Positions 43,039 through 44,514 of a DNA stretch of 64,000 bases are shown here, in pieces. The DNA is taken from assembly GCF_019679455.1 (NCBI RefSeq), contig NZ_JAIEZQ010000002.1, forward strand, positions 124,001 through 188,000, given 5' to 3'. The position numbers were made by a program, and so were the translations under genes. Below the pieces are notes generated by a model, which was not told where the DNA came from, did not search any database, and was given only the letters and a program-made list of their open reading frames with translations. This stretch comes from Nocardioides jiangsuensis. Its GTDB lineage: Bacteria; Actinomycetota; Actinomycetes; Propionibacteriales; Nocardioidaceae. Position 1 is the stretch's first letter. Every line of letters starts with the position of its first letter.

Positions 43039-43131
43039 GTCTGTGTTGTGTGCGGCCGCTGTGCTGCGGGGCGGCCGATCGCGGTCGACGGGCCCGCCCG
43101 GTTTGTCGGTGTCGAACGATAGGTGTGGAGC

Positions 43132-44514
43132 ATGAGCAGCTGTCACTTCGTCCCCCCGTACCTCCTCGACGCGATCGCGTCCGCCCACGTCGACGCCGAC
43201 CTGGCCCGCTGCGGCCACGCCACGCTCGCCGTCGACGAGGGGCTGCGGTCGCGGAGGCTCACCCCGCCGCCGATGGTCGAGGGCGTCCCGCAGAGGGTGA
43301 CACTCGCGGAGGAGGACGCCTGGACGGTCCACACCGCGGCCAACGGCTCCGAGCTGCCGGGATCCCCGGTGCGCTCGGCGGGGGAGCCGGTCTCCGGTGA
43401 CGCCGCGGTCGACGAGGCCTACGCCGGCGTCGAGGCGTCGGTGGCGCTGTTCGCCGAGGTGTTCGGCCGCACCTCCTACGACGGCAGGGGCGCGCCGGTC
43501 ATCGCGACCGTGCACTACGAGCGCAACTACGACAACGCCTTCTGGGACGGCCGCCAGCTCGTGCTCGGCGACGGCGACGGGCGGGTCTTCGACCGCTTCA
43601 CGAAGCCGGTCGAGGTCCTCGCGCACGAGTTCGTGCACGCGGTCACCCAGTACACCGCAGGGCTCGCCTACCGGGGCGAGCCCGGTGCGCTGAACGAGTC
43701 CATGTCGGACGTCTTCGCCGCCTGCGTCAAGCAGCGGCTGCGGGGGCAGACCGCCGCGGAGGCCGACTGGCTGATCGGCGAGGGGCTGTTCCTGCCCGTT
43801 GTGGCGGCGCGCGGGCTGCGGTCCATGGCCGCCCCCGGCACCGCCTACGAGGACCCGGTGATCGGCCGTGACCCCCAGGTCGGCCACATGGCGTCGTACG
43901 TCGACACCACAGAGGACAACGGCGGGGTGCACCTCAACTCCGGCATCCCCAACCGTGCCTTCCACCTCGTCGCGACCCGACTCGGCGGGTACTCCTGGGA
44001 GCGGGCCGGCCGACTCTGGTTCGACGCGCTCACCTCGTCCGCGGTCGGCCCGGACGCCGGGTTCGCGGAGTTCGCCCGTGCCACCGTCGCGGCCGCCGGC
44101 GACGACCGCGGGCTGCGCGACGTGGTGGGGCGGGCCTGGGTGGAGGTCGGTGTGCTGGAGCCTGCGGCCGCCGGGGGAGCGGCCGGCGCCCCCGCTGGTG
44201 CCGGGGCCGAGGGTGGCGTCGGCGCTGCGGGTGGCGAGGCCGGTGCGGAGGAGGTCGTCGAGGTGACCCGCTCCGGAGGGTTCGCCGGGCGGACCGTGCA
44301 CGCCGCGGTGTCCACGACCGGGGAGGACCCGCGGGCGGCGGAGGTGCGTGCGCTGGTCTCCCGGATCGACCTCGGTGCGGTGCGCCCGAGCCCGCCGCAG
44401 CCGGACCGGTACGTCTACTCGTTCGCCGTCGGGCACGCCGTGGTCCGGGTGCCCGAGCAGGACCTCACCCCGGACCTGTCCCGGCTGGCCGCGCTGGTGC
44501 TCGACGACCTCTGA
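43132..44514 (+). CDS. M4 (protealysin-like) metallopeptidase fused to an emfourin-like inhibitor domain
   Basis: A 460-residue protein with no signal peptide. Residues 1-50 resemble the short protealysin propeptide (SSCHFVPPYLLDAIA). The catalytic domain has the zinc motif AHEFVHAVTQYTAG (His165, Glu166, His169), the third ligand in NESMSDVFA and the transition-state histidine in DNGGVHLNSGIPNRAF. After an Ala/Gly-rich linker (about 340-372), residues 374-460 (VVEVTRSGGFAGRTVHAAVS to LAALVLDDL) look like emfourin, the M4 inhibitor usually encoded as a separate downstream gene. Carrying both on one chain implies self-inhibition until cleavage. It converges on an SDR gene with 11 bases between stops. 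Confidence 0.85.
   Translation: MSSCHFVPPYLLDAIASAHVDADLARCGHATLAVDEGLRSRRLTPPPMVEGVPQRVTLAEEDAWTVHTAANGSELPGSPVRSAGEPVSGDAAVDEAYAGVEASVALFAEVFGRTSYDGRGAPVIATVHYERNYDNAFWDGRQLVLGDGDGRVFDRFTKPVEVLAHEFVHAVTQYTAGLAYRGEPGALNESMSDVFAACVKQRLRGQTAAEADWLIGEGLFLPVVAARGLRSMAAPGTAYEDPVIGRDPQVGHMASYVDTTEDNGGVHLNSGIPNRAFHLVATRLGGYSWERAGRLWFDALTSSAVGPDAGFAEFARATVAAAGDDRGLRDVVGRAWVEVGVLEPAAAGGAAGAPAGAGAEGGVGAAGGEAGAEEVVEVTRSGGFAGRTVHAAVSTTGEDPRAAEVRALVSRIDLGAVRPSPPQPDRYVYSFAVGHAVVRVPEQDLTPDLSRLAALVLDDL

Follow-up and report, generated by a model that had tools for sequence, protein, structure and literature searches.

A protealysin-type M4 protease and an emfourin domain in one chain, under a DNA-damage-type promoter in Nocardioides jiangsuensis

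The closest described system is the protealysin/emfourin (M4in) pair of Serratia proteamaculans, in which a short-propeptide intracellular M4 protease is accompanied by an emfourin-family inhibitor encoded by a separate gene of the same operon (available portion of PMC9505478). The same portion reports that protealysin cuts RecA and FtsZ, and that Serratia cells with an emfourin deletion contain less FtsZ (PMC9505478). A second point of comparison is the mycobacterial PafBC (RecA-NDp) regulon, for which the promoter consensus is tTGTCRgtg-8nt-TannnT (excerpts of PMC5656591). This regulon is switched on by DNA damage, and RecA is later removed via the Pup-proteasome (excerpts of PMC8223512). 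The accessible parts of the PafBC literature searched mention no protealysin-type protease. A search for literature joining PafBC and thermolysin found none, and PMC9505478 was the only paper found that joins protealysin and DNA damage.

We analyzed a stretch of 64,000 nucleotides (64 kb) from the genome of Nocardioides jiangsuensis, referred to as the window. An uninterrupted ORF at 43132-44514 on the + strand, running from ATG to TGA, encodes 460 aa plus stop; an in-frame GTG is also present at 43123. In the ORF list, the preceding ORF on this strand extends to 42992, and the large ORF that follows on the 3' side is on the opposite strand. In contrast to S. proteamaculans, where the inhibitor is a separate gene, a single ORF was found here: the emfourin is the C-terminal domain of the protease, and the gene follows a PafBC-type promoter. 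Protealysin and emfourin are combined here in one chain whose gene has a DNA-damage-type promoter. The literature searched, whose accessible part did not extend to the emfourin papers of 2021 and 2023, yielded no account of this fusion or of its control by PafBC.

The M4 catalytic domain comprises residues 58-342 (43303-44157, +) and was delimited through Pfam (PF01447, 1.7e-23; PF02868, 2.5e-45) and matches to thermolysin and to the protealysin precursor 2vqx, which was the closest solved structure (E 6.5e-94). For the comparison of protease sequences, we used 40 of the 41 distinct fused ORFs (L122 was excluded because its start was wrongly set, and L003 is partial) and 21 of the 75 split proteases, selected for diversity. 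The HEFVH motif (residues 165-169, 43624-43638, +), with the zinc ligands H165 and H169 and the catalytic E166, was constant in 39/39 fused and 21/21 split rows that have residues there, as was the third zinc ligand, E189 (43696-43698, +). The catalytic histidine H267 (43930-43932, +), which we take to be the equivalent of thermolysin H231, was constant in 40/40 fused and 21/21 split rows. Together with Y180, D262, N135, and A136, whose roles, like those of the preceding five residues, are presumed from thermolysin, these positions are all present in the window protein and constant in every covering row. The original prediction that all catalytic residues are retained thus holds throughout the fused and split rows that cover them.

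Residues 1-57 (43132-43302, +) form the propeptide and its junction, with the boundary chosen from the AF2 model. The protealysin propeptide model of Pfam (PF16485) scored 13.6, below its threshold of 28.1. Residues 3-342 of the AF2 model superposed on residues 6-341 of 2vqx, propeptide included (Z 48.0, rmsd 1.4, 319 residues). Because the model superposes on 2vqx over residues 3-342, the propeptide is predicted to be seated as in the protealysin zymogen, in agreement with the short protealysin-type propeptide that had been proposed. The chain starts with MSSCHFVPPYLL; a PP(L/Y)-type short propeptide motif was found in this start, with the PP at residues 8-9 in the comparison of N-termini. 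As claimed earlier, no signal peptide was visible by eye at this chain start, and the protease is probably cytoplasmic.

The N-termini also revealed a conserved cysteine (31/41 fused and 64/75 split proteases) that precedes the PP motif by exactly four residues; by eye, none of 15 enterobacterial starts has a Cys at that position. In the window protein, this is Cys4 of the propeptide (43141-43143, +), and it could possibly serve the zinc site as a cysteine switch.

The emfourin domain comprises residues 375-460 (44254-44511, +; block pLDDT 88-97). PF20242 (Emfourin) matched residues 378-454 (E 2.8e-9); the score of 37.7 bits exceeds the family cut-off of 27, and the match reached 41.4 bits in a scan of the whole genome. 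In a profile-profile comparison with hhalign, 13 fused domains matched 15 enterobacterial emfourins with E 8.8e-6 and probability 83. The enterobacterial set used 15 of 18 loci (L145, L148, and L149 were excluded), and the split set comprised 27 selected from 80 rows. The residues G382, G383, and D425 (the latter at 44404-44406, +) are present in 40/40 fused and 27/27 split rows, and all enterobacterial emfourins compared (15/15) share this GG and this Asp. The inhibitor loop G382-G383-F384 (44275-44283, +) has a hydrophobic residue (F, L, I, V, or M) at position 384 in all 67 rows. NMR work on emfourin (Bozin, 2023) reportedly led to the proposal that an Asp binds the zinc and a hydrophobic loop occupies the substrate sites; D425 would correspond to this zinc-ligand Asp, and we propose that it faces the zinc. 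The original prediction had recognized an emfourin-like domain from its first residues, VTRSGGFAG; the profile matches and the conserved G382, G383, and D425 extend this identification beyond that segment.

The family search reported no second emfourin in the genome of the window, but this search can miss members: run over 58 genomes it missed the window's own domain, which was found when the genome was run alone. Absences in family-profile scans were therefore discounted as evidence. In fold searches, the solved emfourin 6zyg was absent among the best 50 of 158 and the best 50 of 184 Foldseek matches, and among the 50 VIA rows listed, although those lists include weak matches to unrelated, non-M4 proteins such as Mago nashi and Dmd. 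We consider the missing 6zyg to speak mildly against an easy fold match, and did not take it as absence of the fold. A profile of the actinobacterial emfourins found no relative in the PDB (best E 0.41); 6zyg was retrieved from the PDB with the enterobacterial query only.

The modest emfourin score of the window protein (37.7 or 41.4 bits, compared to 67-86 bits in 16 of 17 matching enterobacterial genomes) would agree with a C-terminal domain that no longer inhibits and now serves as a module for binding a substrate or partner. We consider this very improbable: every one of the 40 fused rows retains G382, G383, the hydrophobic residue at 384, and D425, and conservation of E442 is stricter in the fused domains (40/40) than in the split ones (17/27).

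The survey of fused and split arrangements that had been called for was carried out. Within the window's family, 110 of the 149 sampled genomes match the fused alignment in some form. Counted by eye, 51 of the 149 align across both domains without a stop; two further rows (G272 and G007) contain a stop in the alignment, yet proved to be single ORFs on reading. Twenty-two other rows with at least 300 bits end short of the inhibitor or have a stop before it (by eye). With three partial rows excluded from the tally, the fused form is the more common in the family (53 rows versus 22). A class-level scan had a match in 186 of 394 genomes, and a scan of species genomes returned at least 588 relatives, of which the best 80 were taken. 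The 131 loci gave 132 rows, some of them from duplicate loci: 46 fused, 74 split, 10 with an emfourin and no M4 gene in the locus, and two with an M4 gene and no emfourin. After removal of identical proteins, 41 fused and 75 M4-only ORFs remained.

Going by record titles, fused forms were found in Nocardioidaceae, Propionibacteriaceae, Promicromonosporaceae, Intrasporangiaceae, and Cellulomonadaceae; some Micrococcales have the fusion. Since it occurs in many genomes, the fusion is neither an assembly artifact nor due to chance, and the placement of protease and emfourin on one chain is confirmed. The original statement that the inhibitor is separate in known systems agrees with the available portion of PMC9505478; it does not extend to the window's family or to those Micrococcales, where the fused form occurs and, in the family, is common. 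In Streptomyces, Arthrobacter, Actinocorallia, and Chloroflexi, the same two domains are encoded in the same order by adjacent genes, as two chains.

These split pairs bear on the possibility that the fusion chiefly fixes a 1:1 stoichiometry and provides immunity, i.e., that a translationally coupled pair was joined and still acts as the split pair does, with a tether that has no special regulatory function. The split homologs are adjacent, and some (L012, L014, L038, L056, and L082) have overlapping ATGA/GTGA junctions. On a tree built from 60 protease domains (39 fused and 21 split, one partial row having been dropped), six switches between the fused and the split state are needed, at least three of them forced by well-supported branches; the two forms therefore interconvert. 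The prevalence of the fused form in the window's family (53 versus 22 rows) argues against this explanation, as does the modeling described below, and we regard it as rather less likely than a regulatory tether.

Several features of the split loci were observed in addition. In many Streptomyces (e.g., L037, L039-L046, and L124-L131), the gap between the protease stop and the emfourin start is a near-constant 24 nt, and a TAGACA-like hexamer is often found just 5' of the emfourin ATG in this gap, where the inhibitor gene might have a promoter of its own. In-frame alignments through both domains with one stop raised the possibility of stop-codon readthrough in Streptomyces. This was rejected: the gap contains a start codon, the spacers are variable, and in many relatives the two parts do not share a frame. 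Emfourin genes without a protealysin-type gene in the 3-kb locus were found at L004-L009, L011, L019, and L021, mostly from another family of the same order.

A motif that corresponds to the PafBC/RecA-NDp promoter recurs upstream of many of the fused genes. In the window, the site TTGTCGGTG-TCGAACGA-TAGGTG is located at 43103-43125 (+), i.e., TTGTCGGTG-N8-TAGGTG, and was also recovered by the genome scan. Its hexamer (43120-43125) ends 6 nt before the ATG, and this short gap suggests a leaderless transcript. It is the sole site in the 64 kb with one mismatch to the consensus, the mismatch being the last base of the hexamer (TAGGTG versus TANNNT). Five more sites have two mismatches, and 1.22 sites were expected altogether.

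Among 57 fused genes, the window's included, 21 have a site matching at least 10 of the 12 motif positions, where about 0.3 were expected from a null rate of 0.0059, and 31 have a site matching at least 9 (null rate 0.0404); the remaining 26 score below 9/12. The null was taken from 150-nt windows of the same loci, and the homologs counted are kin rather than independent draws. In 25 of the 31 fused genes that reach at least 9, a start codon (any start codon was counted) is located exactly 6 nt past the motif. A fixed spacing next to a variable spacer sequence is the pattern expected of a retained promoter. The split pairs differ in that most non-fused homologs (76/89) score below 9/12; 13/89 reach 9 and 8/89 reach 10. 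Some split pairs do carry the motif: 12/12 sites are present 5' of the protease in the Arthrobacter pairs L075, L097, and L101, and a 10/12 site in Curtobacterium L089.

Across the genome (3.97 Mb), the core TGTCRGTG-N8-TA was found at 16 sites and the reversed pattern at 0, and at 15 of the 16 sites an ORF starts within about 12 nt of the core (L180 is the one without). These ORFs encode SbcD (above the TIGR00619 cut-off), a dGTPase (dgt, above the NF002829 cut-off), a LysM protein (above the Pfam cut-off and below that of the YneA model), two glyoxalase-like proteins, two ABC ATPases (one above and one below the DrrA cut-off), and seven mutually related DUF222-like proteins (L175, L177, L178, L181, L182, L186, and L187, on G000:C1 and C2), three of which were scanned with Pfam: one was named DUF222, and two gave no family. 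The fifteenth is the fused protease itself. The LysM gene is about 1 kb from a LexA-like ORF (by eye) that reads in the opposite direction, with an SDR-like ORF between them. One of the glyoxalase-like genes, L183, is located directly 3' of another M4 protease match (G000:C2:1036621-1037517).

A 10/12 site also precedes recA, with 62 nt rather than 6 nt between its hexamer and the ATG as read here. Two WYL genes are neighbors and adjoin ORFs that by eye resemble TatA and TatC; Pup is encoded about 5 kb from them, and the genome has a third WYL gene at another place. Assigned by genomic context, the WYL pair has the appearance expected of a PafBC locus. The genome thus resembles the mycobacterial PafBC regulon in its promoter consensus, its WYL pair with nearby Pup, and the sites at recA and repair-type genes; it differs from the accessible descriptions of that regulon in the inclusion of a protealysin-type protease. 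From the promoter site and its genomic company, the fused protease gene is probably DNA-damage-inducible.

The catalytic and emfourin domains are joined by an Ala/Gly-rich flexible linker (residues 343-374, 44158-44253, +), recognized by its composition and by a pLDDT below 50 at residues 352-370. In 40 fused rows, the linker is 4-79 aa long and 77% A, G, P, S, or T, and contains no F, Y, W, M, K, or C. The original prediction held that cutting of this linker frees the inhibitor, with a burst of protease activity directed against competitors or used for regulated lysis. The linker should be accessible, since it is long, disordered, and variable, and Serratia protealysin and emfourin have been proposed to act as effector and immunity protein (available portion of PMC9505478). 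However, L, I, F, and M account for only 15 of 990 linker residues (1.5%), compared to 3.4% in 189 control windows matched for Ala/Gly/Pro/Ser/Thr content, and only 1 of 2000 random sets was as poor in these residues as the linkers. When V is also counted the gap is small (7.1% in linkers, 8.0% in controls). The propeptide junction, the expected cut site, contains 6.1% L, I, F, and M, its composition being unmatched to that of the linkers. This depletion speaks weakly against self-cleavage of the linker, which other proteases may still cut; the lack of any K in the linkers also counts against release by cutting. As to an attack on competitors, no secretion signal was seen, no delivery partner was recognized by eye in the ORF list between 38 and 50 kb, and the promoter evidence indicates a response to DNA damage. 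Nothing we examined indicates secretion or competition; we consider release by linker cutting for such purposes unlikely, and the proposed anti-competitor role found no support.

To the AF2 model of the whole chain (88-row alignment; pTM 0.78, mean pLDDT 91) we compared one from which residues 1-57 had been removed, using the same 88 sequences, trimmed and realigned. In the latter, the pTM rose to 0.91 and the mean pLDDT to 93.2. Rough pTM arithmetic suggests that the emfourin domain is placed loosely in the whole chain and tightly without the propeptide. In the simplest reading of this rise, the propeptide and the emfourin domain compete for one site, although a share of it could stem from the loss of the flexible propeptide junction. 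The models suggest that the inhibitor docks in cis only after the propeptide is lost, which would amount to two successive locks, with a putative contact surface between inhibitor and protease. The rise in pTM is consistent with docking in cis, which is the point of the modeling that argues against a fusion serving stoichiometry alone. Given the conserved inhibitor positions and the change in pTM, the fused chain is best interpreted as a latent enzyme that is inhibited in cis. To this extent the latent intracellular enzyme originally proposed stands, while its release through cleavage of the linker does not; the prediction is partly supported, its observation being confirmed and its interpretation half right.

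We consider it likely that the gene encodes an intracellular protealysin-type M4 protease that is induced by damage and doubly self-inhibited. Transcription would start from the PafBC-type promoter 6 nt before the ATG, where the site and its regulon context are observed and induction is the expected consequence. In the newly made chain, the short propeptide would shield the active site in the manner of the protealysin zymogen, judging from homology and the model, and would then be clipped, presumably by self-processing. The rise in AF2 confidence suggests that the emfourin domain could then swing over on the flexible linker and cap the active site of its own chain, where the conserved GGF loop and D425 are likely contacts. 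The enzyme would stay latent because its inhibitor is tethered 1:1. Displacement, unfolding, or degradation of the inhibitor might end this latency, as might competition by a substrate; self-cleavage of the linker would be the least likely route of release.

By analogy to protealysin, RecA and FtsZ are plausible targets, and the analogy suggests them as candidates for a latent protease made at the time of damage; cleavage of either would fit a checkpoint or a shut-down of the damage response. More tentatively, and with odds that we would put below even, the fused chain may be a dedicated proteolytic arm of the PafBC response: induced together with the repair genes, unlocked in two steps (the propeptide and the tethered emfourin cap), and cleaving RecA and/or FtsZ or similar proteins so that division arrest is timed or the response brought to an end, the tether serving as a built-in limiter.

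The one-chain form under a damage-type promoter provides a clear and testable context for when the enzyme is made, what silences it, and what it cuts. Natural fused and split pairs within one bacterial family offer material on how tethering an inhibitor alters a protease, and the PafBC regulon would gain a latent protease.
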